Shown here: piece by piece, positions 36,972 to 61,668 of the stretch
How positions within the stretch are numbered: position 1 is the first letter of the stretch
Layout: every line of letters starts with the position of its first letter
NCBI GenBank assembly: GCA_022565795.1
Contig: JAIUMA010000001.1
Span: 62,001-126,000, forward strand
From: Balneolia bacterium
GTDB taxonomy: Bacteria; Bacteroidota; Rhodothermia; Balneolales; Cyclonatronaceae
Length of the DNA stretch: 64,000 nt
Direction of reading: 5' to 3'
The notes under the pieces: model-generated
The model's database searches: none
Told to the model about the DNA's origin: nothing
What the model saw: the letters and a program-made list of their open reading frames with translations, nothing else
Position numbers and translations under genes: made by a program

Positions 36972-37469
36972 TCAGGTATCGAACAGATTTGAAAGTTTGC
37001 AGGCAGATTCTGCTTCATCCAGCGCGTTTTGCAGATCTTCCGGGGAGGGCACGCTGGACTTATCCAGCTCATTGCCGTCTTCAACAGCCTTAAGAGCTGT
37101 TTTCTCCAGCTTGAATGCCAATGCAGCTAGTCTTTCGAAGCTAAGCATTACGGCTAGCCCTTTTATGCTATGACCGAAGTTATGTATCGAAAGCGCCTCA
37201 TTTTTGTCCCAGGCATTTCTCAGCAAATCCAGCCTTTTATTGAGAGTTGGTATAGATTTGCCTAGCACGCTTCGAATAAAAATAACGTCGTCTTCCAGCC
37301 TGCGTCTTAGCGCATTTTCGTCAAAAGCTGGTTTTGTATGTATATTTGAATTTTCGATAATTTTAAACTGCGGTAGTATCAGGTACGTCCTTGGTTCTGC
37401 GTTTGAAGATCTGAACGAAGTAAGATAACATTGATAGCAAAAAGAGGGAGCTTCATCATACGTCGCCAT
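36972..37469 (-). CDS. Hpt (histidine phosphotransfer) domain protein
   Basis: At most 166 residues. The Hpt four-helix bundle spans the C-terminal 110 residues; the phosphorylatable histidine is in HNFGHSIKGLAVMLSFERLAALAFKLEKTA, matching the HxLKG consensus. The start is uncertain: the frame is open back into the preceding glycosyltransferase gene, the nearest ATG is at 37469 (inside that gene), and only non-standard codons lie after the glycosyltransferase stop at 37379, so the first 30 or so residues may be unreal. As an Hpt protein it would relay phosphate between a receiver and a second receiver. Its place after an EPS glycosyltransferase with a sigma54-type promoter suggests a regulatory role in the EPS system. 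Confidence 0.75.
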   Translation of the reverse strand: MATYDEAPSFCYQCYLTSFRSSNAEPRTYLILPQFKIIENSNIHTKPAFDENALRRRLEDDVIFIRSVLGKSIPTLNKRLDLLRNAWDKNEALSIHNFGHSIKGLAVMLSFERLAALAFKLEKTALKAVEDGNELDKSSVPSPEDLQNALDEAESACKLSNLFDT

Positions 37470-38158
37470 CTTGATGGCTGTAGCCATAGCCGGTATAACC
37501 ACTCTGTCCCGGTTTTTCTGAAAGCTGCCGGAGCCCTTTTCACTGTACCTGCTATAAAATCAAAACTGCCGCCAATACCGATAATTACCCTGCAGTTATC
37601 CAGGAATTTCATGTTATTATAAATCCATTTTTCCTGAGCAGGCGCCCCGAGTGCAACAAAGACAACTGATGCTTTTCGTAATGCATCTTGTGTTGATCGC
37701 GGCAGATTCTCTACAGTCAAATCGGGTTTGTCGGGCGAATAGGTGCCTGCAATGGCCAGGTTCTCTATTCTCTGTTTAAGAATATCGGCTGCTTTTGTTG
37801 CAACACCTGGTGCAGCGCCATAAAAGAATACGCTTTGATTATTCTCGGCACTAAGCCTGCAAATTTCTTCAAGAGAGTCAGAGCCGGTGATACGTTCTAC
37901 CTGTTGCCTATAGATATGCTTTACGGCCCAGCTAATCCCTACTCCATCAGCAGTGTTTATTTGTGACTGGTTGAGAATGTGCCTGAATTCATCATCATAA
38001 ATGGTATGTGTTGCAATTTCAGGATTAACTGTCACCACAAATAAAGGAGACGTTTTCTCTTGGCTTTCAGCAAGTTTTTGATTGATTTCACGGTAAAACT
38101 CATCGCGTGAATGGGCCGATATTGGAACACCTAAAATATTGAATCTTTGGGCAGACAT
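37379..38158 (-). CDS. WecG/TagA/CpsF family glycosyltransferase
   Basis: 259 residues. The GT26 family transfers a sugar such as N-acetylmannosaminuronic acid or N-acetylmannosamine onto a lipid-linked acceptor on the inner membrane face. Clear motifs: VVTVNPEIATHTIYDDEFRHILNQSQINTADGVGISW, ERITGSDSLEEICRLSAE, VFFYGAAPGVATKAADILKQR and VFVALGAPAQEKWIYNNM, then GVGxSFDFxAG-like IGIGGSFDFIAGTVKRAPAAFRKTGTEWLYRL. It is the first gene after a near-perfect sigma54-type promoter and is followed, with overlap, by the Hpt gene. Confidence 0.93.
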   Translation of the reverse strand: MSAQRFNILGVPISAHSRDEFYREINQKLAESQEKTSPLFVVTVNPEIATHTIYDDEFRHILNQSQINTADGVGISWAVKHIYRQQVERITGSDSLEEICRLSAENNQSVFFYGAAPGVATKAADILKQRIENLAIAGTYSPDKPDLTVENLPRSTQDALRKASVVFVALGAPAQEKWIYNNMKFLDNCRVIIGIGGSFDFIAGTVKRAPAAFRKTGTEWLYRLWLQPSRWRRMMKLPLFAINVILLRSDLQTQNQGRT

Positions 38159-38200: not shown

Positions 38201-38216
38201 TGCAAAACCTGTGCCA
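38201..38216 (-). promoter_or_regulatory. Sigma54-type -24/-12 promoter for the WecG/TagA gene
   Basis: Minus strand reads TGGCAC-AGGTT-TTGCA: a full match to the RpoN consensus (TGGCAC-N5-TTGCA) with GG-N10-GC spacing, ending 43 bases before the ATG at 38158. The best of five such elements in the EPS locus. Confidence 0.8.
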
Positions 38217-39264: not shown

Positions 39265-39459
39265 TTGTTATCTCAGATGCCGGATAAAACCTTTTTACAC
39301 CAGCTGAATTTGTATGTGTGAAATATTGTAACAGTGTGGAACCAAGTTACGGGAATAGGATTGTAAAAATGAAGGGAAATTGGGACTATGTAAATTATTT
39401 TCGTCTTTTGTTCATCCAAATGAATATATAAGATATTCTAATACCATAAAGTCATTCGT

Positions 39460-39475
39460 TGGCATACTCATTGCA
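39460..39475 (+). promoter_or_regulatory. Sigma54-type -24/-12 promoter for the NRPS-like module
   Basis: TGGCAT-ACTCA-TTGCA, GG-N10-GC, 76 bases before the ATG at 39551. It differs from consensus only at the last -24 base. The rest of the 39265-39550 gap is AT-rich and holds no other signal I can name. Confidence 0.75.
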
Positions 39476-39550: not shown

Positions 39551-40567
39551 ATGGATATAAAACTATTTACAACTACTCCTCAATCGGTTGACTTTGAGGG
39601 TCCCGAGTTTTTAAATGAATTAAAAAATATTGCACGACTAAGCGAGAAGCACGGGTTCCGTGGTACGCTCATATATAGCGATAACCGCCTTGCAGATCCG
39701 TGGATGCTGGCCGGGCTTATTATGTCTGAAACCCGGAACCTCATACCAATGGTAGCCCTGCAGCCAGTGTATATGCATCCGTACACGGTAGCCAAGAAAA
39801 TCTCAACTCTGGCTCTTCTGTATAACAGACCGGTTGCCATGAATCTGATTGCTGGTGGATTTATTAATGATCTCAAAGCTTTGGACGATGACACACCACA
39901 CGATAAGCGCTACGACAGGCTATGCGAATACACTGAAATTATACAGCAGCTGCTAACTTCACGACGGCCCGTTACCTATGAAGGTGAATTCTACCGAATT
40001 AAGAATTTAAAACTACAGCCAGAGTTGCCGGAGAATCTTCAGCCTGAGTACTACCTGTCAGGTTCTTCTGAGGCTGCCAAGGAAACGGCCAATAGACTTG
40101 GAGCAACTTTAATTGAGTATCCGGAGCCTCCCGAAGCTTATACTGCAAATAACGGAGCTACCGCTCGTAAACTGGTTGGCATTAGAATTGGTGTACTAAC
40201 AAGAGACAACCATGATACAGCATGGGCCATAGCCCGATCACGCTTTCCGAATACCCGTGAAGGTCAACTTTCACATCTGCTGGCCACGAAAGTATCTGAT
40301 TCTCAGTGGCACAAAAAACTATCAGATCAGAAGCTGGAAGACGATCAGGAGAATACTGAACCTGTATACTGGATGGGACCTTTCAAACACTACCAAACTT
40401 TCTGCCCTTATCTTGTAGGTGATGTTAACGAGGTTTCTAATGAAATCAGTAACTACATCGAAAAAGGATGCTCTTTATGTGTACTTGACATTCCGGTGAG
40501 TGAAGAAGAGCTCGAATACACCGTTGAAGCTTTTAAACGTGCAAGTGAACTTGCTGTAGCAAGATGA
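39551..40567 (+). CDS. Luciferase-like flavin-dependent monooxygenase
   Basis: 338 residues. LLM-class (SsuD-like) FMNH2-dependent oxygenase. Typical segments: IARLSEKHGFRGTLIYSDNRLADPWMLAGLIMSETRNLIPMVALQP at the N-terminal barrel, AMNLIAGGFINDLKAL, HDKRYDRLCEYTEIIQQLL, VTYEGEFYRIKNLKLQP and YYLSGSSEAAKETANRLG. In known systems relatives oxidise sulfonates or carrier-bound amino-acid units; the NRPS-associated branch (MupA/Atu3671-like) is often found with formyltransferase and adenylation domains, which are its neighbours here. It overlaps the adenylation gene by 4 bases (ATGA) and is the first gene after a sigma54-type promoter. Confidence 0.88.
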   Translation: MDIKLFTTTPQSVDFEGPEFLNELKNIARLSEKHGFRGTLIYSDNRLADPWMLAGLIMSETRNLIPMVALQPVYMHPYTVAKKISTLALLYNRPVAMNLIAGGFINDLKALDDDTPHDKRYDRLCEYTEIIQQLLTSRRPVTYEGEFYRIKNLKLQPELPENLQPEYYLSGSSEAAKETANRLGATLIEYPEPPEAYTANNGATARKLVGIRIGVLTRDNHDTAWAIARSRFPNTREGQLSHLLATKVSDSQWHKKLSDQKLEDDQENTEPVYWMGPFKHYQTFCPYLVGDVNEVSNEISNYIEKGCSLCVLDIPVSEEELEYTVEAFKRASELAVAR

Positions 40568-42162
40568 TGCTCTACGACTACTCCCGCCTGCAGTCTGAAA
40601 TCAGGTCCGATGCTCCTGCTATAACTATGGGTTCGAAAACTCTTACCTATGGCGATCTGGAAAAGCAGAGCAATCAACTTGCTCATGTGCTTTTGGAGAA
40701 AGGCCTGAAGCCGGGTGACAGGGTTTGCTTATTTGCTGAAAAGAATCCGGATACAATTGTTGCAATGCTGGGTGTGATGAAAGCCGGAGGCGTTTATGTC
40801 CCTCTTGACATTAACAGCCCGGCTGAACGCATCAGCCGAATGGTTTTGTCGTCCTTTCCTGCCTTTATCCTTACAGATAAAAAAGCTGAGGCTGCTTTTC
40901 AAGAGCTTCGCAATACTGATTCATATATACCTGGTATTCCAGTTATTTGGTGGTCAGATTCTGAAAATTCATTTAAAGTAAATACTGCTTTTTCAAAATC
41001 TGATGTAATACATGCCGAAAACATCCCATATGCGGTAGTTCGAAACCCTGAAACAGCTGCGCATATCCTGTTTACATCCGGCTCTACTGGTCTGCCCAAA
41101 GGAGTTGTTATTAAGCATAGTAACGTAACGGCATTTGTTGCTTGGGCTGTAGACTATTTCGATATGAAACCGGGAGAAAGAAACTCGGGACATTCCCCAC
41201 TTCACTTCGATCTTTCAACCTATGATATTTACGGTACCTTTGCGGCCGGCGGACATTTATTTCCTGTGCCAGTCGATATGAGCGTACATCCAGTGAAACT
41301 GGTTGAGTTCATCCGTGACAATAGATTAACACAGTGGTTTTCTGTTCCTTCTGCACTTAACTATCTGGCCCGGTTTAAAGCTGTACCTGAGAGCGGATTT
41401 CCGGATTTAAAGCGGCTAATCTGGTGTGGTGAAGTATTTCCGCTTTCTGGTCTGCAATACTGGGTGAAGAGTCTGAATGATGTACAGTTTACTAATCTAT
41501 ACGGCCCAACGGAAGCAACCATTGCGAGTAGCTTTTTTACATTATCAGACTTTCCGGAAAAAAATATTCCAATTGGCAAAGCCTGCAGCAATGAGGGGCT
41601 TTTGATTTTGGACGATGACATGAAACCAGTTAGAAACGGAGAAAAAGGCAACTTATATATATCAGGTGCTGGTCTGAGCCCCGGGTATTGGGTAAGCCCT
41701 AACCCAAATGTAGATCACCAGCTGCCCCCTTCACCATTTGTGTTTTTTGAGAACGAAAGCGGTGAACAGGAGCGTATTTATAAGACTGGAGACCTTGCAT
41801 CAATTGGAGAAGATGGTTTGGTTTATTTCCATGGTCGTGCAGATTATCAGATAAAAAGTCGTGGATACCGAATCGAGCTCGGCGAAATAGAGGCAGCGCT
41901 TAGTAAAAGCGACATTTTACGTGAGTTTGCGGTGGTTCCTGTCGAAAAAGGGGGGTTTGAAGGAACCTCAATCGGATGTGCATTTGTGCTAGCCGAAGAC
42001 GTAAGTGGCAACGGGCGTCCTGAGCCCAGGATAAAAAAAACATTGCAGGAGCTTGTGCCACCTTATATGATTCCTCATTTTTGGAAAGCATATGATAAGC
42101 TGCCAAGAAATGCTAATGGGAAGATCGACAGAAGAAAACTGTCTGATCACTTTGAACAATAG
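40564..42162 (+). CDS. Stand-alone amino-acid adenylation enzyme (NRPS A-domain)
   Basis: 532 residues. It activates a carboxylic acid, most likely an amino acid, with ATP and loads it on a carrier protein. Core motifs in order: AHILFTSGSTGLPKGVVIKHSN (A3), LHFDLSTYDIYGT (A4), NLYGPTEATIASSF (A5), YKTGDLA (A7), FHGRADYQIKSRGYRIELGEIE (A8) and LPRNANGKIDRRKL (A10 with the catalytic lysine). The Asp in FDLS corresponds to the residue that binds the alpha-amino group, so an alpha-amino acid substrate is favoured. No condensation, carrier or thioesterase domain is fused; the carrier is encoded by the next gene. Confidence 0.92.
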   Translation: MMLYDYSRLQSEIRSDAPAITMGSKTLTYGDLEKQSNQLAHVLLEKGLKPGDRVCLFAEKNPDTIVAMLGVMKAGGVYVPLDINSPAERISRMVLSSFPAFILTDKKAEAAFQELRNTDSYIPGIPVIWWSDSENSFKVNTAFSKSDVIHAENIPYAVVRNPETAAHILFTSGSTGLPKGVVIKHSNVTAFVAWAVDYFDMKPGERNSGHSPLHFDLSTYDIYGTFAAGGHLFPVPVDMSVHPVKLVEFIRDNRLTQWFSVPSALNYLARFKAVPESGFPDLKRLIWCGEVFPLSGLQYWVKSLNDVQFTNLYGPTEATIASSFFTLSDFPEKNIPIGKACSNEGLLILDDDMKPVRNGEKGNLYISGAGLSPGYWVSPNPNVDHQLPPSPFVFFENESGEQERIYKTGDLASIGEDGLVYFHGRADYQIKSRGYRIELGEIEAALSKSDILREFAVVPVEKGGFEGTSIGCAFVLAEDVSGNGRPEPRIKKTLQELVPPYMIPHFWKAYDKLPRNANGKIDRRKLSDHFEQ

Positions 42163-52972: not shown

Positions 52973-54535
52973 TCAGTCTTTTTCTTCTTCTCCGGATTCA
53001 GATTTAGCTAATTGATGTTCATTATTGATTTTCTCAATGACCGGAAGCATCCCCATCAAACATCCCAGATAAAACATATTCCTGGAATACGTTAGCTGAA
53101 GATCAAAAAATGAAACGACCATCTGATTAATCACTGCAATGGTTATCACTGCCGTAATAGCCTTAAGCCAGGGATCTTCAAGTCTCATGAAAACTTTGGT
53201 GGATTTTGCGACAAATGAATTGAAGAAAAACCAAAAAATGAAAAAGCCGACTGCCCCCATTTTGACGAAAACCCAGTATATCTGATTGTGCGGGATATAG
53301 TCCATGAGTGGAAACGCGATATTTACCAAGGGAATGGGTTGCTCGTAGGCATTTCCGAACCCGACACCCAGTATCGGATTGTTAAGGGCTGTTTGTGCAA
53401 GGTTATAATTTTCGTTTTCCCTGTACAGATTAGAAGAATAATCGCGATAGTTTTCAGTTTTATCTGCCTGCCCTATTCCTGATTTAAATTTCTGAACGGG
53501 GCCACCGATAGGATGTGATGAACTCCAAAATGCTGCACCGTAGATAAATAGTCCAACCATTATAGGTACGAAGTAATGCATAAACGCTATTCGCTTAGCC
53601 ATAGGTAGCAAAATGATAAAAGCACCTAGAGAGACAAATAACGAACCAAATGTTGCACGCCGCTGAGCAACAATGAAACCCATGAGGATTGGCAAAAGCA
53701 TGACTAACAGGAAAATCCGCTGGCGATCATTAACTCTGTATGATAAAAAAGCCATAAGCAGAATAAACAAGGTCACAAAGAAGACGGCATCTTCATGGTT
53801 TGTGAGCACCTGAAACCCTCCGGTCGAAAATCCCATACCCACAAACCTTCCAACTCCCTGCAAAGCCTTGAAAGTTATCCCGATCAGGAATATCCAAAAT
53901 AGCGTATGGAGCTGCTGCTTGGTGTCGACAAGCTGGGGTACTATGATGAACATAATGCACAGGTAAAACAGAGCCCGTACTTCCCAAAGTGCAACCATGA
54001 AGTCTCCTCCCTGGCTCATACCATACCCGAAAAAAGCTACAATGCTTCCCATAAACATTAAAAAAGGAATCGGTACAGGTATACCCTTATACTTGAAATC
54101 TCTAAGCATGGAAGCGTGAAGCAATAAACCAGAACACAGAAAAAACAGATGTATTTCCGCCGGATTCATGAAACCCGAATGGATATAAGGTATATATGGT
54201 ATTTCCTTTAGATTATGGAAAAAGCGTACTTCGAACGTGATAGGGCTAAATCCCGGAATTGCGTACTGTTCGAACAACATTACGGTTGCCATAAGCATAT
54301 ACAGACTGTAAACCGGTTTAATGATACTCACCAGTAAAGCACACGTCATGTACATCATTGCGGCAACAAGAGCAATGTTGCCATCAAACATAAAAAGTCC
54401 GCCGAACATTAGCAGGGATGATGCAAGAAGCACAAGTAAAACAGGCGCACTCTCTTTGTCCAGGCCAAAAATCCCCAGGAAAGAATCTATGCCGGATGAA
54501 GTCCCTCTGTATGATTGTGATTTTACGCTGCTCAT
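52973..54535 (-). CDS. O-antigen ligase/polymerase family protein (Wzy-like)
   Basis: 520 residues from the ATG at 54535; a TTG at 54565 would make it overlap the small upstream gene. About 11-12 membrane helices with a large loop (about 370-430: SSNLYRENENYNLAQTALNNPILGVGFGNAYEQP), the Wzy_C region of O-antigen ligases and polymerases. It probably polymerises repeat units in the periplasm. Position between the 54-residue membrane protein and the Wzx flippase supports this. Confidence 0.88.
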   Translation of the reverse strand: MSSVKSQSYRGTSSGIDSFLGIFGLDKESAPVLLVLLASSLLMFGGLFMFDGNIALVAAMMYMTCALLVSIIKPVYSLYMLMATVMLFEQYAIPGFSPITFEVRFFHNLKEIPYIPYIHSGFMNPAEIHLFFLCSGLLLHASMLRDFKYKGIPVPIPFLMFMGSIVAFFGYGMSQGGDFMVALWEVRALFYLCIMFIIVPQLVDTKQQLHTLFWIFLIGITFKALQGVGRFVGMGFSTGGFQVLTNHEDAVFFVTLFILLMAFLSYRVNDRQRIFLLVMLLPILMGFIVAQRRATFGSLFVSLGAFIILLPMAKRIAFMHYFVPIMVGLFIYGAAFWSSSHPIGGPVQKFKSGIGQADKTENYRDYSSNLYRENENYNLAQTALNNPILGVGFGNAYEQPIPLVNIAFPLMDYIPHNQIYWVFVKMGAVGFFIFWFFFNSFVAKSTKVFMRLEDPWLKAITAVITIAVINQMVVSFFDLQLTYSRNMFYLGCLMGMLPVIEKINNEHQLAKSESGEEEKD

Positions 54536-54545
54536 GTCTGGCTTA

Positions 54546-54710
54546 TCACTGTTCAGGGACTTCAATCGTCCCCATCATAAAAAGCACATAAACTACCATA
54601 ATTGCGGAAATGGCTGCCGTAAGCATATAAGGAACCCTATCGTTCTTTGTGAACTTCGTGCCCCAAATAACCAGAAAGTGCAATATGATTAGCCCCAGAA
54701 GTATTTTCAT
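54546..54710 (-). CDS. 54-residue two-helix membrane protein between BY-kinase and Wzy genes
   Basis: The frame starts at the ATG at 54710, overlapping the stop codon of the kinase-like gene as TGATG, and stops 10 bases before the ATG of the Wzy gene. Its first helix is KILLGLIILHFLVIWG (about 2-17), then a charged turn KFTKNDRVPY and a second helix LTAAISAIMVVYVLFMMG (about 30-47), ending with an acidic tail. No family is recognised. The exact fit into a 4-gene overlap chain makes it a likely real gene; it might be an accessory of Wzy, Wzz or the kinase. Confidence 0.75.
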   Translation of the reverse strand: MKILLGLIILHFLVIWGTKFTKNDRVPYMLTAAISAIMVVYVLFMMGTIEVPEQ

Positions 54711-55426
54711 CACTTCTCAACTTTGTTGAACACATATCCAAGGAACTGCTTCTCTTCTATATGCTTAAAAACCTTTTCAAGTTCACCCTTTTTAGTCTTA
54801 TTAGCATTAACCACGCTTATAAGGCCATCGATTTCATTAATAAAGTGTACCGGAAAGTCTTCAATTGGAAGAATTGAGCACATGTCTACTATTACAAAGT
54901 CAAATTCATGCTTAACAGTGTTCAAAATCTGGCGGAGTATCAGCGTGTGCTCGATACCAGGCTTAAGGCGATGCACATCACCTATGGGCATGAGGTAAAG
55001 GTTTTCAAATGATGTGGGCACAACGCGTATTTTTTCATAGCAAAGGGCTTCAGCCAGACCGGGTGAAGATTCAGCACCAAAAACGTTATGCAAACTAGGA
55101 CGCTGAAAATTCATATCAATAATAAGCGTCTTCTGTTGATACCCACTGGCGAGTGATACGGCCATGTTAGCAGCTACAACGGTTTTTCCATCAGCCGGAC
55201 GTGCGCTCGTAATACCAACGGTTAGTTTGTTGTCGCCAAACGCCTTAGCAAGTCTTGAAAAGTTAAAGCTATTGTAATGCTTCCACTGAATGATTTCCTT
55301 GTCCGGCTTCTGCAAGACCTCAGCAGAAACCAATACAGGCAGTAAACCACCGTTTTTTCTTGGTGATTTATGATCTTTAAGAATGATAGAAGAGCTTGAT
55401 TCCTGCTTCACTTCCTGTGAATTCAT
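54710..55426 (-). CDS. CpsD/CapB-type ATPase (BY-kinase-like) without tyrosine cluster
   Basis: 238 residues. The MinD/ParA-like fold with VGITSARPADGKTVVAANMAVSLA (Walker A with GKT), KTLIIDMNFQRPSLHNVFGAESSPGLAEAL (Walker A' with D and RP) and FDFVIVDMCSILPIEDF (Walker B). BY-kinases normally end in a tyrosine-rich cluster that is phosphorylated; this chain ends GYVFNKVEK and has none, so autophosphorylation would differ. It probably partners with the Wzz-like protein whose gene lies 29 bases upstream, to set EPS chain length. Confidence 0.85.
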   Translation of the reverse strand: MNSQEVKQESSSSIILKDHKSPRKNGGLLPVLVSAEVLQKPDKEIIQWKHYNSFNFSRLAKAFGDNKLTVGITSARPADGKTVVAANMAVSLASGYQQKTLIIDMNFQRPSLHNVFGAESSPGLAEALCYEKIRVVPTSFENLYLMPIGDVHRLKPGIEHTLILRQILNTVKHEFDFVIVDMCSILPIEDFPVHFINEIDGLISVVNANKTKKGELEKVFKHIEEKQFLGYVFNKVEK

Positions 55427-55455: not shown

Positions 55456-56778
55456 TTATGATAAGTAGGCTATAATTGGTTTTGGATAGGGTAAGTCAGC
55501 CTCTTTTCTGATGGTAGTATCCATTACTTCTGCAAGCGATACCAACCCAACACCCATAATCATACCCATCAGTAATCCAATGCTAAGAATTAGCCTTTTA
55601 TTGGGTGAAGATGGTCTTTCTGGAATATACGGAGCATCAAGTACCATAAACTGCTCACTACCCCTTCTTCCAATATCGCGGGTCATTTTTGCTTGCTCAA
55701 GGTTAACTCTCATGTCATTAAGAAGCCCTTCATAAATTCTGAGGGATGACTCAGACGAACCTGCCTGTTGAGTTGCTACAAAAAATCGTTGCATATCTGA
55801 AACCACACGACCACGCTGTTCATTTAGTTCAGCTCGTCGTGATTCCAGCGTAGACATTCGCGATTCAATAGCCGGTGGTATACGATTTACAAGCTGCTGG
55901 ATTTGAACAGCCATGCTTCTTACCCTTGGAAAACTCTCTGTAAACTGCTGTTGCAGCGTGTCGTACTCGCTTAAAAGTTCAGACAACTCAGACCCAAAGG
56001 GTGTTTCATCAACCGGTAGTCGGTACAAATACTGTATACCGTCTGCGGTCATTGCCGCCTCTTTATAATTGGAAATTGCAGTTAGCATGTCCTCATACCG
56101 GTACAAATCCCACTCTACGGTTTCAAGCTGATTCTCAACATTCTGTAATCGCGCCTGCATCGCATTGGTATCTGACGGAATATCCTGAAGCCTGGTCGAT
56201 GTCCTGTCAGTCTGCTGGTTCCGTAATTCATCAACGGTCTGTTGAAGCTGTTCCAGCTGATTGCTGAAGAAGGTAACCGTTTCCTCATTGGTTCTGTTTT
56301 CCAGCCTCAGCCTTGACGAAATAAAGTGGTTAGCAAGGATTGATGTACCGTCTCTTGCACGAACAGGGTCTGTATCACGGTAAGTAATTTCAAAAGAATC
56401 AGACGCTCTTGATGTAGTGTAAATATTTCTGCGCAGATTGGAAATAAGCAATTGCTTCTCGGATTCTGTCCGTAAGGTCCTGTCTAATCCAAGGCTGTCA
56501 ATAAGCATCTCCATAGCCGTACGGCTGTAAATGATTTCGTTAAATGAGTTCAGGCGATCCTCATTTGCGGAGGATGCTCCCATATTATACATCACTAATG
56601 GATTTAGTGTCTCATCCTTTAATACTAATATAGAGGTAGATGATTCGAATTTTGGTTCGATATACTGAAGAGCAACAACAGCTGCTCCAACAAAAAATAG
56701 TGGCGTTATTAAAAGGAGCAACCACCTTCTGCGAACTACATCCTTTATATTTTGTACAATTTCTTTTATGTCTTGCAT
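55456..56778 (-). CDS. Polysaccharide chain-length determinant (Wzz/GNVR type)
   Basis: 440 residues. One N-terminal helix (WLLLLITPLFFVGAAVVALQYIEP), a long periplasmic coiled-coil region (about 150-360: LQQTVDELRNQQTD, LESRRAELNEQRGRVVSDMQRF), a GNVR-like segment (RIYEGLLNDMRVNLEQAKMTR ... LDAPYIPERPSSPNKRLIL) and a C-terminal helix (ILSIGLLMGMIMGVGLVSLAEV). It controls polymer length with the downstream BY-kinase-like ATPase. The ATG is directly preceded by TTTGCACC. First gene of the Wzz-to-acyltransferase unit, divergent from the Wza-like exporter. Confidence 0.93.
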   Translation of the reverse strand: MQDIKEIVQNIKDVVRRRWLLLLITPLFFVGAAVVALQYIEPKFESSTSILVLKDETLNPLVMYNMGASSANEDRLNSFNEIIYSRTAMEMLIDSLGLDRTLRTESEKQLLISNLRRNIYTTSRASDSFEITYRDTDPVRARDGTSILANHFISSRLRLENRTNEETVTFFSNQLEQLQQTVDELRNQQTDRTSTRLQDIPSDTNAMQARLQNVENQLETVEWDLYRYEDMLTAISNYKEAAMTADGIQYLYRLPVDETPFGSELSELLSEYDTLQQQFTESFPRVRSMAVQIQQLVNRIPPAIESRMSTLESRRAELNEQRGRVVSDMQRFFVATQQAGSSESSLRIYEGLLNDMRVNLEQAKMTRDIGRRGSEQFMVLDAPYIPERPSSPNKRLILSIGLLMGMIMGVGLVSLAEVMDTTIRKEADLPYPKPIIAYLS

Positions 56779-56819: not shown

Positions 56820-56835
56820 AACAAGAGCCATGCCA
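56820..56835 (-). promoter_or_regulatory. Sigma54-type -24/-12 promoter for the Wzz unit
   Basis: Minus strand TGGCAT-GGCTC-TTGTT, GG-N10-G spacing, ending 42 bases before the ATG at 56778. Both halves deviate by one base from the consensus, so it is the weakest of the five. Confidence 0.5.
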
Positions 56836-56930: not shown

Positions 56931-56957
56931 ATTCGGTTGATTTAGAATCGACCGAAT
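56931..56957. promoter_or_regulatory. Inverted repeat between the two divergent EPS promoters
   Basis: ATTCGGTTGAT - 5 bases - ATCGACCGAAT, an 11-bp dyad with one mismatch. It lies about 95-110 bases upstream of the minus-strand sigma54-type element and about 155 bases upstream of the plus-strand one, the usual distance for an activator (UAS) site. The rest of the 404-base gap (56779-57182) is AT-rich without other clear signals. Confidence 0.55.
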
Positions 56958-57110
56958 CAGTTTTACACATCCCCCCTGAATGAATTTGTAAATATGCTAC
57001 TCTTTGTTCCGATATGTATTGATTTCAAATATGAGGAAACCCTAATAAGAGTGCCTATAGTACTTAATATCAAATACATACAAATACTGAAATGTAAAGT
57101 TTTAAAAGAT

Positions 57111-57126
57111 TGGCACATTTGTTGAC
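57111..57126 (+). promoter_or_regulatory. Sigma54-type -24/-12 promoter for the Wza-like unit
   Basis: TGGCAC-ATTTG-TTGAC: perfect -24 half, -12 half TTGA instead of TTGC, with GG-N10-G spacing, ending 57 bases before the ATG at 57183. Confidence 0.6.
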
Positions 57127-57182: not shown

Positions 57183-57917
57183 ATGAGAACGATTATTTCG
57201 TTACGATACTATCTAATAATGGCAATTACTGCCGGATTTTTATTTACAGGCTGTGCTTCAAGTAATAATGTGAGCAATAGTTCTGAACTTAATGCTGGCA
57301 TGCAGGCCCAGGCAATGTCTAGCACCACTACGCAGCGAAGTACTGATACGCCTACTTACCGCATTCGGCCGGGTGATGAAATCGAGGTTTTGGTTTGGGA
57401 GCACCCGAATTTTAACGTACTAACTACAGTCTCAAGTACCGGAAGCATAGCTGTTCCACTAGTTGGTGAAATGAGAATCGCGGGACTAACCCAAGAAGAA
57501 TTTGAGCAAGAGCTTAGCCGCAGACTATCTACTTACATACGAGATGAAATAAGCCTCACTATCTCAATACGTAATACAGAAAGTCTTATGGTTTCTGTAT
57601 TCGGTATGGTTACCAGACCTGATAATTACCCTGTAGTCGATGAAATTTCCATTTTTAGATTATTGTCTACGGCTGGCGGACCAACGGAAAACGCCAATAT
57701 GAGAAAGGTGCACCTATACAGACAATCGGGGGCTGAAGATTCAGCAATTTTGGATCTTACAGAATATTTGGATAGCGGCCGCATGGAAGACCCGGCCATT
57801 CTGGTTCGACAGGGCGACATCATATATATACCAAGAAAAGACAATGCCGTAAGAGAGATGTCTGAGTTTCTTCGTGATGTCGTAGTTCTATTCGGAATTT
57901 TCAGGATCTTTAATTGA
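57183..57917 (+). CDS. Wza-like polysaccharide export lipoprotein
   Basis: 244 residues. Lipoprotein signal (LIMAITAGFLFTGCASS, lipobox FTGC). A Poly_export domain (about 58-140: YRIRPGDEIEVLVWEHPNFNVLTTVSSTGSIAVPLVGEMRIAGLTQEE) and a SLBB-like domain (about 145-220: LMVSVFGMVTRPDNYPVVDEISIFRLLSTAGGP, IYIPRKD) form the periplasmic part of the export channel. It is shorter than E. coli Wza (about 380) and lacks the C-terminal outer-membrane helix, so the neighbouring barrel protein may provide the pore. First gene of a six-gene unit. Confidence 0.93.
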   Translation: MRTIISLRYYLIMAITAGFLFTGCASSNNVSNSSELNAGMQAQAMSSTTTQRSTDTPTYRIRPGDEIEVLVWEHPNFNVLTTVSSTGSIAVPLVGEMRIAGLTQEEFEQELSRRLSTYIRDEISLTISIRNTESLMVSVFGMVTRPDNYPVVDEISIFRLLSTAGGPTENANMRKVHLYRQSGAEDSAILDLTEYLDSGRMEDPAILVRQGDIIYIPRKDNAVREMSEFLRDVVVLFGIFRIFN

Positions 57918-58876
57918 TGAGCGTCTACATGAAAAAAGTTATTTTCATAATTTCCTTAATGCTATTCCTTTTTCCTTTTGATTTCCTTCTCGCGCAGGAA
58001 GGTGAAGAAGTGATACAAAGAAACCGACTCACGGTTCAAAATGCAGATACTCGTTCTCTCGCTCTGGGTAGTTCAACATTAGCTGATATCTACTTCAGTG
58101 ATGCTTTTGGTATTAACCCGGCCATTGTAGGGTTCGGTGAACATGGTAATTATATACACGGATCACTGAACCAGGACTGGAACACAAATATCTTGCAGGC
58201 AACCCTGGCACTTCCACGACTTGAAGTGGGGCGCCATTCTATTGGTAGCCGTCTGAGCGCTGTAAACCGTGGCCCGGCTGCCATTAATATAGGTGATGCA
58301 CCAGCATTTAACCCGACCTACACGCTTGTTCAGGCAAGTGTTGCCTACGCGTACCGAATCCATGAACACCTGAGTCTTGGGACCCTCCAATACGTTACCT
58401 ATGCCGATCATCTAAGTGATAGCGGCGTTAGTTACGGCGCAGATTTAGGCCTGCTGTACGCTCCGGACGGTGCCGTAACCTACGCCATAGCTTTCCGTGG
58501 TTTAGGACAGGATCCTGTCGTTTTACGAGATGAAGCAGGTGAACGGCTCAACTACGAAATGATGCATCAGGTGCTGGAAATTGGTGCTACGCTCAGATAT
58601 CCGGAGTTTGAGGACTACCATTACTTTTCTTTCTCGCTATCTAACGAGAAGCGATTTAACGAAGATGGAATGTGGTACAAAGCAGGTTTAGAAGTTCTGC
58701 CTGTATCATTTCTGGCTCTTAGGTCCGGACTTATGCTTCAAACCGAAGATAACAGACTGGTACCAAGATTTGGTATTGGTACATCATTTTCAATTCTCCG
58801 GTTCGACTATTCTATTGGTCCGAACGAACGAAATAATGTTCGGTTCCATCAATTTGGACTCTCATTGCAACTATAG
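57917..58876 (+). CDS. Outer-membrane beta-barrel protein, PorV/UPF0164-like
   Basis: About 319 residues; the ATG at 57917 overlaps the previous TGA, and an alternative ATG at 57929 starts directly at the signal peptide (MKKVIFIISLMLFLFPFDFLLAQ). The mature part starts with a DTRSLALGSSTLADIYFSDAFGINPAI segment, like the ALGxGGA start of PorV/FadL-type barrels, followed by alternating polar/hydrophobic beta-strands and a C-terminal aromatic-rich strand (FHQFGLSLQL). No enzymatic motif. Given its place between the export lipoprotein and a regulator, it may act in EPS secretion or surface attachment. Confidence 0.75.
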   Translation: MSVYMKKVIFIISLMLFLFPFDFLLAQEGEEVIQRNRLTVQNADTRSLALGSSTLADIYFSDAFGINPAIVGFGEHGNYIHGSLNQDWNTNILQATLALPRLEVGRHSIGSRLSAVNRGPAAINIGDAPAFNPTYTLVQASVAYAYRIHEHLSLGTLQYVTYADHLSDSGVSYGADLGLLYAPDGAVTYAIAFRGLGQDPVVLRDEAGERLNYEMMHQVLEIGATLRYPEFEDYHYFSFSLSNEKRFNEDGMWYKAGLEVLPVSFLALRSGLMLQTEDNRLVPRFGIGTSFSILRFDYSIGPNERNNVRFHQFGLSLQL

Positions 58877-58878
58877 AT

Positions 58879-59697
58879 ATGAATTACTTATCTGCTCCCG
58901 AAAGCAAAATTGCTTCAAATAGATTGCTTCTTCGCAGCTCAAGCGTACTAATGCAAGATATTTATGATAAAACCATGACCGTTGCACGTCTCGAAAAGCA
59001 CGTGCTTCTTATCGGAGAAATGGGTGTAGGCAAAAAGCATGTTGCCCGAATAATTCACAACGAAGGAGCCCGAAAAAGTGGACCGTTCATGTCATTCTAC
59101 TGTGTGGATGTAGATGAAGCTCAGCTTAAGGATGCTTTCTGTGAGCATGTTTTCATCGAAGGCAATCATATAAACCTTAAGTATGACCTGCTGGAGAAGG
59201 CCAGTCATGGTGTCCTTTTCATAGATCAGTTTGGGGAGCTTGATGTAAGCATGATGTACAGCGTGTTAGATTCGTACAGAATTGGATGTCATCAGCTGTT
59301 CCGCTATAACACGAGCGCTGCTCCAAGGCTGGTTATTTCAATAAGCCAGAGTTCCTACAAAAGACTCATTGGTACAGAAGTATGGGATTATGTACTTCAA
59401 ACACTGAACCCTATTTCCATCATGCTACCACCACTGCGTGAGCGAAAGGAGGATATTTTTGACCTTGTACATGATTTTATATCGCAAATTAGTCAGTCTG
59501 AAGATGATTGGAGCCAGCTTACTATTTCTGATGAAGCAATGAATAAGTGCATGGCATACAGCTGGCCCGGTAACATCAGGCAGCTCAAAAATGCATTGAT
59601 GCAAGGAGCAGTATTGTCCTGCGGTGAAACAATTCAAAGCCATCATCTCCCCTTTTCCATGAACTGGAAACTTCCATATCGCCAAGATTCTGAGTAA
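58879..59697 (+). CDS. Degenerate sigma54-activator AAA+ domain protein (no GAFTGA, no HTH)
   Basis: 272 residues, a single AAA+ domain of the bacterial enhancer-binding protein (EBP) family. Walker A VLLIGEMGVGKKHVARIIHNEG (about 43-65) and C-terminal LPPLRERKEDIFDLVHDF and MAYSWPGNIRQLKNALMQGAVLSCGETI are typical. Altered parts: the L1 loop with GAFTGA is missing (only HVFIEGNHINLKYDLLEKA remains), Walker B is LFIDQFGEL with Gln in place of the catalytic Glu, and the FRxDLYYRL arginine-finger segment reads VWDYVLQTLNPI. No receiver or Fis-type helix-turn-helix is present. It cannot be a classical activator; a role as modulator of an active EBP or a moonlighting AAA protein is inferred. Confidence 0.85.
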   Translation: MNYLSAPESKIASNRLLLRSSSVLMQDIYDKTMTVARLEKHVLLIGEMGVGKKHVARIIHNEGARKSGPFMSFYCVDVDEAQLKDAFCEHVFIEGNHINLKYDLLEKASHGVLFIDQFGELDVSMMYSVLDSYRIGCHQLFRYNTSAAPRLVISISQSSYKRLIGTEVWDYVLQTLNPISIMLPPLRERKEDIFDLVHDFISQISQSEDDWSQLTISDEAMNKCMAYSWPGNIRQLKNALMQGAVLSCGETIQSHHLPFSMNWKLPYRQDSE

Positions 59698-59730: not shown

Positions 59731-61668
59731 ATGATTATAACTTACCTTTATGCCTTTTTAATACCCATGTTATTGGCACTGCTGATAACGCCGTGGGTTA
59801 TTAAATTTGCGTTTAAAATCGGCGCTACTGATTCGCCCGATGAACGTAAGGTTCACAAAAAAGTAATGCCTCGTATTGGAGGGTTGGCTGTTTTCGTGAG
59901 CATGGCTTTGTCTATTCCGCTCTCTATCGTTCTTTTTCCTGAGCTGCTCGAAGAACTTCTTCTAAATCTTAACAAAACAGCGTTACTCGCTTTTAGTTTC
60001 ACAGCAATATTTGCGCTGGGATTCTGGGATGACATGAAAAACCTGAGTCCTGAAATTAAGTTTGGAATTCAGTTTGCAATTGCAGCTGTTATCTATTTCG
60101 CAGGTTTTAAGATTTCAATGATAACTCACCCGTTTGGTGATGGGCTGCTAAATGTAGAACTCATAGATTTCCCGCTTACGCTGTTATGGATAGTAGGTGT
60201 AACAAACGCATTCAACCTAATCGATGGGCTTGATGGACTAGCTTCGGGAGTTGCGGCTATTGCGTGCCTTTCGATTTTTACTGTTTCTGCTCTTGCTGGA
60301 CAGGTCTGGCCAGCCGTTTTAGCGCTTGTGCTTGCCGGGGCTTTGATAGGCTTTCTCCGGTATAATTTCAACCCTGCAAAAATATTTCTTGGAGACTCAG
60401 GAAGCCTTTTCATCGGTTTTGCTTTGGCTTTATTATCAATACAAAGCACTACAAAAATCACCACAGGTTTTGCTCTGCTTTTTCCTGTCTTGGTACTGGC
60501 CCTGCCAATAACAGATACCATTATCTCAATGGTACGCAGGTTTCTGGGAAGTTACCTGGAGAGGAATCCTTCAAAAGATGAATCTATACTGAAGAAGATT
60601 CATTTTATGTTCAGGCCGGATCGGGCTCATATACACCATCAGTTAATTTCACTGGGACTCACACACAGAAATGCAGTTCTATGTTTATACGGTGTTTCCG
60701 TTCTTTTTGCAATATCTGCTTTTTCCCTGTCCTTACTAATGAGCAGAGAAGGACTTGCCGCAGTTGCCATACTTTCTGGTGTTTTGCTTTTTGTTGGAGT
60801 AAAGAAGCTAAGCTACCATGAGATAGCCATTTTTAACAATGGACTTATGATGCCATTGTATGAGAGATGGATCATAAATCGTTCAGTTTATCTGTATCTC
60901 GTGGATCTGTTTTTCATCGCTGCTGCCGGAATGCTCAGCTATATTCTAATTAGTACGATAAATTCCGGACTAGATACTTTCATACAAAATGAAATTATTC
61001 TGATGCTTTCTCTGGCATCACAGATGGTTGCTTTTTGGGTTCTGGGGCTATACAAAGATGACATTCGCCAGTTTGGTATTGGAAATGCCCTGCACATCGT
61101 TAGCGCTGTCGCTTATGCTGTGGGATTGTCCGGTGTTGTGATCTACTTTGCCGGCTTTACTAATATTCCGGTTCTTTTTGTCTTTCTGGTGATGAATTTC
61201 TATGTACTTCTGAGCTTTGTGCTGGGATTCAGAGTAATGTACAGAGCGCTTCGCTTCTGGTTCAATCGTGAAAAGCGCACTGGTGAACGCGTTTTGATTT
61301 ATGGAGCTAATGACAACGGCCTGATGCTTCTTAATAAACTAAACCACTCCCCTGAGATGCAGATGAAGATTATCGGATTTCTGGATGACGATCAAAAACT
61401 CGAAGGCAAAATCATTAACGGATACCCGATATTAGGTAACCATTGGAAACTGTCTAAAACGCTCGAAAAGCAGAAAATTGATTCTATTTTAATCTGCAAG
61501 GAAGAAATGAAGTCTGAAGACCTGAATCGGATTAAAGACATAGCTCATAGCAAGGGTGTTCAGGTAAAGTGGCTGCATATAAGCATGGAGAGTATTTTTA
61601 AGCTTCCAAAACCTGCAAGTGGTAACATGTGGCCTGTATCGTCAGATACAGCGGTATCATCAAACTAA
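59731..61668 (+). CDS. WecA-type phosphoglycosyltransferase fused to a CapD-N/Rossmann region
   Basis: 645 residues. Residues about 1-345 are a polyprenyl-phosphate HexNAc-1-phosphate transferase: MPRIGGLAVFVSM, LGFWDDMKNLSPEIKFGIQF, VTNAFNLIDGLDGLASGVAAIA, PAKIFLGDSGSLFIGFALA and HIHHQLISLGLTHR, with about 10 helices. Then residues about 375-500 form four more helices and 510-640 a Rossmann domain (RVLIYGANDNGLMLLNKL, KIIGFLDDDQKLEGKIINGYPILG) matching the N-terminal region of WbpM/PglF-type epimerases, without their catalytic SDR domain. It would start the repeat unit on the lipid carrier; the second half may sense a nucleotide. This fusion is not one I recall as common. Confidence 0.88.
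   Translation: MIITYLYAFLIPMLLALLITPWVIKFAFKIGATDSPDERKVHKKVMPRIGGLAVFVSMALSIPLSIVLFPELLEELLLNLNKTALLAFSFTAIFALGFWDDMKNLSPEIKFGIQFAIAAVIYFAGFKISMITHPFGDGLLNVELIDFPLTLLWIVGVTNAFNLIDGLDGLASGVAAIACLSIFTVSALAGQVWPAVLALVLAGALIGFLRYNFNPAKIFLGDSGSLFIGFALALLSIQSTTKITTGFALLFPVLVLALPITDTIISMVRRFLGSYLERNPSKDESILKKIHFMFRPDRAHIHHQLISLGLTHRNAVLCLYGVSVLFAISAFSLSLLMSREGLAAVAILSGVLLFVGVKKLSYHEIAIFNNGLMMPLYERWIINRSVYLYLVDLFFIAAAGMLSYILISTINSGLDTFIQNEIILMLSLASQMVAFWVLGLYKDDIRQFGIGNALHIVSAVAYAVGLSGVVIYFAGFTNIPVLFVFLVMNFYVLLSFVLGFRVMYRALRFWFNREKRTGERVLIYGANDNGLMLLNKLNHSPEMQMKIIGFLDDDQKLEGKIINGYPILGNHWKLSKTLEKQKIDSILICKEEMKSEDLNRIKDIAHSKGVQVKWLHISMESIFKLPKPASGNMWPVSSDTAVSSN

Follow-up and report, generated by a model that had tools for sequence, protein, structure and literature searches.

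At positions 58879-59697 (+) of the window (the whole stretch of 64,000 nucleotides that was analysed, G000:C1:62001-126000 of a 3.59-Mb genome) lies the gene of a 272-residue protein, which we call PSEUDO or the dead subunit, and which resembles the AAA+ domain of sigma-54 activators while lacking the GAFTGA loop, the Walker B glutamate, the arginine fingers and the DNA-binding domain. The open reading frame is exactly the one given in a preliminary description of this DNA. The gene is part of an exopolysaccharide (EPS) operon, and its family is conserved in the order together with an intact sigma-54 activator encoded nearby, to which we refer as EBPnear. The dead subunit is probably a built-in brake or partner subunit for the switching of the exopolysaccharide genes.

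The dead subunit and its family

In the comparison with Pfam, PSEUDO matches Sigma54_activat (4.6e-15), covering only positions 4-114 of the 168 in the profile, and AAA_lid_14 (3.2e-19); HTH_8 was found by Pfam neither in PSEUDO nor in the 22 core members of its family described below, in agreement with the DNA-binding domain having been reported absent. An AlphaFold2 model built from 22 orthologues (mean pLDDT 82.6) was matched by Foldseek to the AAA+ domains of FlrC, NtrC1, ZraR, FleQ and PspF, with E values of 1e-13 or better, and VpsR is also among the fold matches. By both comparisons, PSEUDO has the Sigma54_activat (EBP) AAA+ fold followed by AAA_lid_14. About 45 of its 272 residues precede Walker A, and the receiver-like domain and HTH of the VpsR type were not found; VpsR, which had been put forward as a parallel, is a structural relative only: its receiver and its DNA-binding domain are retained, and PSEUDO has neither.

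The state of individual residues was read from an alignment of 27 orthologues, using the numbering of PspF verified against PDB chain 2vii. F85 of the GAFTGA loop occurs in 0/27 orthologues, which have there a different sequence, shorter by one or more residues; the Walker B glutamate (E108) is likewise present in 0/27, with Gln in its place in 19. The arginine-finger segment had been thought to be missing: its helix is present, and what has changed is that both arginines are replaced, R162 being found in 0/27 orthologues (a conserved Trp takes its place in 25/27) and R168 also in 0/27. R122, E125 and D164 are lost in the family as well. By contrast, the Walker A lysine (K42) is present in 26/27 orthologues, the protein of the window included, its surroundings (G36, E37, G39, G41) are kept in the 27 sequences, and the Walker B aspartate (D107) and the sensor II arginine (R227) are present in 22/27 and 21/27, respectively. 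Apart from the finger helix, these counts bear out what had been read from the single sequence, namely loss of the loop, Gln for Glu in Walker B, and retention of Walker A and of the sensor II region.

It can be seen that the lost residues are those that act in trans across the subunit interface or that contact sigma-54, and that the residues binding the nucleotide in cis are mostly retained; with the trans face and the sigma-54 loop lost and the cis nucleotide face kept, the dead subunit is thus one-sided. On the strength of the retained Walker A it still looks able to bind ATP; since the Walker A lysine is lost in G021 and D107 in five members, ATP binding is not universal in the family. By its sequence, PSEUDO would not be classed as a functional sigma-54 activator, of which GAFTGA, the Walker B glutamate, the arginine fingers and HTH_8 are the defining marks. 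A frameshift or assembly error masking a normal GAFTGA or HTH region can be ruled out: the next gene begins 33 bp after the stop codon, a gap too short for an HTH to be hidden there by a frameshift, and the same lesions recur in the 27 orthologues, including independently assembled genomes, which excludes a sequencing error. No syntenic homologue with an intact motor was found.

The family was searched for with a four-sequence profile in 128 genomes of the order, probably Balneolales, and 244 of the class. The scores show a clean gap, with 22 orthologues at 332-536 bits and ordinary activators at 125 bits or less. Four intermediate scorers (G036, G041, G031 and G038) occupy the same place in the EPS locus, and two further members were recognized by their position in it (G015, and G083, where the gene is split over two contigs). 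In total, the dead subunit is present in 28/128 genomes of the order; none was found in the rest of the class, nor among 394 genomes sampled across the phylum, and a scan of contigs yielded no new member, its matches being swamped by ordinary activators.

The 22 core orthologues keep a length of about 272 residues and at least 45% identity. Values of dN/dS were 0.04-0.17 in three pairs with unsaturated or usable synonymous sites, while the G000/G002 pair was left out, its synonymous sites being saturated; the gene is clearly under purifying selection where synonymous sites allow an estimate. A C-terminal motif, HLPFSMNWKLPY, is specific to the family and nearly invariant in the core members; it stands directly after the AAA lid, where the linker to an HTH would start, and may be a docking tail. 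An HTH-like C-terminus is retained in three divergent orthologues, G036, G015 and G083 (HTH_8 scores 20.7 bits in G015, where 22 would be needed to pass the cut-off, and does not match G036), and a degraded C-terminal extension in G041, G031 and G038. As all of these are already without the motor, the order of losses suggested by the sequences is that the motor probably went first and the HTH afterwards.

The EPS locus, its control region and the partner activator

The unit that contains PSEUDO opens with the gene of a Wza-like polysaccharide export protein (Poly_export, SLBB; 57183-57917, +), followed by that of a PorQ-like predicted outer-membrane protein (OMP; 57929-58876, +), which ends 2 bp before the PSEUDO start codon and served as marker of the EPS locus; the next gene after PSEUDO encodes a WecA-like glycosyl-1-phosphate transferase fused to CoA_binding_3 (59731-61668, +). 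The divergent unit starts with a Wzz-like chain-length determinant (55456-56778, -) and includes a BY-kinase-like (Wzc C-terminal) ATPase (54710-55426, -) and a Wzy-type polymerase (52973-54565, -). The Wza-OMP-PSEUDO-WecA order is strict in 21 genomes. When the family was profiled against EPS loci, the OMP was found in 25/244 genomes, with the dead subunit directly after it in 21 of them. An OMP and an EBPnear-like gene occur without the dead subunit in G047, G122 and G123 (Wza, OMP and WecA-like genes are all there in G047, Wza and OMP in G123), and G149 has a weak OMP match, also without the dead subunit. Conversely, in seven genomes of the genus g7 the dead-subunit gene lies outside the EPS operon, near EBPnear and with its own control region, and no OMP of the EPS operon was found in these seven. 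With the OMP occurring without the dead subunit, and the dead subunit without the OMP, the EPS genes are not its constant companions; the activator is the more constant one.

Two sigma-54 -24/-12 elements face the two units: TGGCACATTTGTTGAC (57111-57126, +), upstream of the Wza-like gene, and TGGCATGGCTCTTGTT (56820-56835, -), upstream of the Wzz-like gene. Taken singly, neither site is strong in G000, and a search of the window by pattern alone gives 3 matches versus 2.5 expected by chance; since this is not above chance, conservation across genomes was used instead. Both sites are conserved in the alignment, in 17/17 intact Wzz-Wza intergenic regions, and are about 275 bp apart in most genomes; the sigma54-type promoter that had been ascribed to the unit is thereby confirmed as a conserved feature. 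Between the two divergent promoters lies a bipartite enhancer-like element, GAATCAGTTTTACACA ... TGTAAATATGCTACTCT (56954-57003) in the window, whose conserved form is TTTACACA-N15-TGTGAAN5TTCACA, with its centre about 115 bp upstream of the Wza-side -24 box. The lone dead-subunit gene of g7 has its own sigma-54 site in 7/7 genomes and the same bipartite enhancer element upstream, and its divergent neighbour, which in several cases is a glycosyltransferase, likewise possesses a sigma-54 site.

In 505 kb of loci there are only 6 copies of the perfect palindrome, and 5 of these belong to the enhancers described here; one of the 5 is that of G021, which is outside the enhancer model and has the palindrome 122 bp upstream of its -24 box. 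The model itself matches G000:C1:118950-119006 with E = 1.1e-6, a locus that belongs to its training set. Matches with E <1e-4 are confined to dead-subunit genomes; 18/20 of the model matches are by construction training loci or their genomes, and the held-out matches are those of G062 (E = 9.6e-10) and G015 (E = 2.8e-4). The weaker sites of G031, G038, G065 and G021 were not recovered by the model under stricter filters.

EBPnear (G000:C1:127823-128830, -), the intact sigma-54 activator near the dead subunit, is encoded about 6 kb downstream of the PSEUDO gene, 1.8 kb past the end of the window. The genome contains rpoN and four strong canonical activators, EBPnear and three others, and among these EBPnear is the nearest relative of PSEUDO (107 bits vs 79 or less). 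EBPnear proteins form a distinct family, with 28 genomes above 300 bits and the remainder at 267 or less. The motor motifs are intact in 28/28: Walker A, GAFTGA (GSFTGA in 2), Walker B DE, the RxDxxxR fingers and sensor II. The N-terminus before Walker A is short, 12-82 residues (open-frame values for the 28 proteins), and thus there is no receiver.

Both proteins are present in 24/128 genomes, with four genomes having the dead subunit alone and four EBPnear alone (raw counts, in which relatedness is ignored); the genomes with a dead subunit and no detected EBPnear (G003, G061, G062 and G077) are all fragmented assemblies, one of them 98% complete. Wherever contigs are long the two genes are on one contig, as convergent neighbours in most of g7 and about 4-27 kb apart elsewhere. 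The other activators are present across the order irrespective of the dead subunit, and co-occurrence and linkage are seen for EBPnear only. As would be expected of a FleT-like partner, the dead subunit co-occurs and is co-regulated with an intact activator. In the tree, EBPnear and the dead subunit each form a clade (100/100 and 100/99); descent of the dead subunit, which is on a long branch, from EBPnear has an AU p of 0.454, and sister status is neither supported nor rejected. A second EBPnear gene is found elsewhere in the g7 genomes G021, G024 and G029, and an EBPnear-similar match in G025 is a 198-aa open frame.

A possible brake inside the partner ring

We judge the chances to be about even that PSEUDO is a ring subunit, enzymatically dead itself and devoted to the regulation of EBPnear, which damps or tunes EPS transcription by negative feedback. 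EBPnear has no N-terminal regulatory domain and hence needs control in trans, like PspF or HrpR/S; receiver-less bEBPs are known to be regulated in this way (PMC7057263; PMC3791423). According to the proposed mechanism, EBPnear bound at the TTTACACA-N15-TGTGAAN5TTCACA enhancer would drive the EPS operons from their divergent sigma-54 promoters. The dead subunit, encoded in one of these operons, would accumulate as the EPS genes are expressed. Through its retained nucleotide-binding face the dead subunit would enter EBPnear rings, where it would accept an arginine finger and donate none, having the conserved Trp instead, and would offer no GAFTGA loop for contact with sigma-54. The run of adjacent functional loops needed for sigma-54 engagement would then be broken and transcription damped or fine-tuned, the outcome being negative feedback on the EPS operons. 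We infer the binding of EBPnear to the enhancer, the mixed rings of both proteins and the negative effect from what is observed in the genomes: the lesions, the conservation and purifying selection, the co-occurrence and linkage with EBPnear, and the promoters and enhancer, those of the relocated gene included. Mixed rings and feedback had both been raised in the preliminary description, and each is now partly supported, the former by a candidate partner, namely an intact activator without a receiver whose gene is found in the same genomes and mostly in linkage, the latter by the conservation of a sigma-54 promoter and enhancer, which the gene retains even outside the EPS operon.

By analogy, published mutants of PspF support the logic of such a brake. 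The E108Q protein forms constitutive hexamers that bind ATP about 30-fold more tightly and hydrolyse almost none (PMC4132715), and mutants of R162 and R168 have lost ATPase activity or retain little, yet are constitutive hexamers (PMC3419264). When wild-type and loop-dead T86A subunits alternate in the ring there is no transcription, two adjacent intact loops being needed (PMC4132715).

The main rival to the brake is that the sign could instead be positive, as for FleT or HrpR: the dead subunit would be a required or stimulatory member of the hetero-ring that helps EBPnear to assemble or provides a defined asymmetric seam. This is a serious candidate, if on the unlikely side. The same genomics fit it, and among known kinds the dead subunit would work most like FleT with FleQ; the closest precedents are FleQ/FleT, HrpR/HrpS and PspF/PspA. 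In Rhodobacter sphaeroides, FleQ activates the sigma-54 operon encoding FleT and then acts with it as a hetero-oligomer (PMC7277832, PMC3162934), and FleT is activator-like without regulatory and DNA-binding domains (PMC3162934). HrpR and HrpS of Pseudomonas syringae, which form receiver-less hetero-hexameric activators controlled in trans (with HrpV), are co-dependent (PMC7057263), and PspF can still remodel DNA when alternating subunits are defective in hydrolysis (PMC4132715). On the other hand, the GAFTGA loop is absent from every dead-subunit member, loop-dead subunits are not tolerated in alternation in PspF (PMC4132715), and four EBPnear genomes do without the dead subunit. FleT, compared here by description only, is counted among the functional activators with GAFTGA and its effect is activation (PMC3162934), whereas the dead subunit is without GAFTGA, the Walker B glutamate and both arginine fingers. 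HrpR and HrpS, too, differ from it in that both keep all motifs.

HrpV, the inhibitor of HrpR/HrpS, is not known to be an AAA+ relative, and pspA belongs to PspF's own regulon. In Escherichia coli the receiver-less PspF is restrained in trans by PspA (PMC3791423), a coiled-coil protein that binds the ring from outside, whereas the dead subunit has the activator fold and could sit in the ring. VnfA1 and VnfA3 of Azotobacter vinelandii are paralogous activators that interact and whose hetero-hexamers tune promoters (PMC9542535), but they keep their GAF, AAA+ and DNA-binding domains. TyrR, DhaR, YplP, HupR and VpsR are AAA+ proteins of the same fold without a functional GAFTGA (PMC3162934); unlike the dead subunit, which has no DNA-binding domain, they are full DNA-binding transcription factors. 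At the PEP-CTERM/exopolysaccharide loci controlled by PrsR/PrsK, EPS-associated genes also have sigma-54 promoters and a conserved upstream motif (PMC1569441), but PrsR, a response regulator, has a kinase of its own and a receiver, the latter being absent from EBPnear.

It is distinctly improbable that the dead subunit, co-transcribed with Wza, OMP and WecA, has a non-transcriptional role in the machine that assembles or exports EPS, where it would bind ATP and act as a scaffold or sensor. Such a role would account for the strict gene order in 21 genomes, and the unique C-terminal motif HLPFSMNWKLPY could dock elsewhere; but in the seven g7 genomes the gene is outside the operon, no such OMP was found, EBPnear is near (convergent and adjacent in most), and the relocated gene keeps its own sigma-54 promoter and enhancer. 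Moreover, Wza, OMP and WecA-like genes persist in G047 without the dead subunit, as do Wza and OMP in G123. Two observations lower the likelihood of the EPS-assembly ATP sensor considered in the preliminary description: some orthologues have lost Walker A or B, and the g7 gene stands beside the activator, with no Wza, OMP or WecA gene next to it. That the target is another activator, or the sigma-54 holoenzyme itself, and not EBPnear, has very little probability: the genome has three further strong canonical activators and AAA+ interfaces are conserved among them, but EBPnear is the closest relative of PSEUDO in its own genome, and it alone co-occurs with and is linked to the dead subunit, the others being spread over the order regardless. 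A decaying gene without function, to which the many lost catalytic residues and the stepwise disappearance of the C-terminal domain within the family might point, is practically inconceivable, being refuted by purifying selection (dN/dS 0.04-0.17) and by the length and identity conserved over the 22 core orthologues, with the conserved Trp at the arginine-finger site and the retained promoter and enhancer also speaking against it.

The known cases in which a receiver-less activator is controlled in trans all involve either co-activating paralogues or one of a few unrelated inhibitors, and the open-licence papers searched contained no account of a conserved subunit with the activator fold that lacks the loop, hydrolysis and DNA binding together. 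Somewhat tentatively, we suggest a new class of control, in which a pseudo-ATPase derived from an activator by staged losses (motor, then HTH) enters the intact hexamer one-sidedly and governs EPS synthesis in a self-limiting manner. If this is true, it would be, as far as could be found, the first case in nature of a sigma-54 ring governed by a pseudo-ATPase, and a question of long standing, the number and positions of defective subunits that a ring tolerates, would become testable with natural components. Activator, brake, enhancer and promoters would together provide a concrete model of exopolysaccharide control in a little-studied bacterial group.

Further control elements and neighbouring genes

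Perfect sigma-54 matches occur at just two places in the window, namely TGGCACAGGTTTTGCA (38201-38216, -), upstream of a WecG-like gene (37379-38158), and TGGCATACTCATTGCA (39460-39475, +), before a luciferase-like and AMP-ligase-like gene pair (39551-42162). Upstream of the latter site there is a second enhancer-like element, CCTTTTTACACC ... TGTGAAATATTGTAACA (39290-39333, +). Enhancer-related elements are also present upstream of the genes orthologous to the 39460 target in G005 and G035, and in G005 the orthologues of the genes behind both perfect sites lie near EBPnear. From these sequence comparisons, 39290-39475 is a probable second target and member of the same regulon.

In G073, a 48-bp match to the enhancer model is present in six near-identical copies, on contigs C47, C59, C101, C150, C202 and C203; several are near contig ends, and the copies have the look not of enhancers but of a piece of some repeat or mobile element. 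In the g7 loci L089, L088, L091 and L092, the EBPnear-dead-subunit pair adjoins a fatty-acid synthesis cluster (plsX-fabH-fabD-fabG-fabF-rnc), and a glycosyltransferase or carbamoyl-phosphate-synthase-like gene is divergent from the dead subunit. Finally, a resemblance to XrtA/PEP-CTERM families, at scores under the respective cut-offs, is seen in the window for the Wzz, BY-kinase and Wza genes, and elsewhere in the genome, at G000:C11:9240-9662 (-) in locus L291, a 181-aa open frame matches the exosortase family (PF09721, 52.8 bits).
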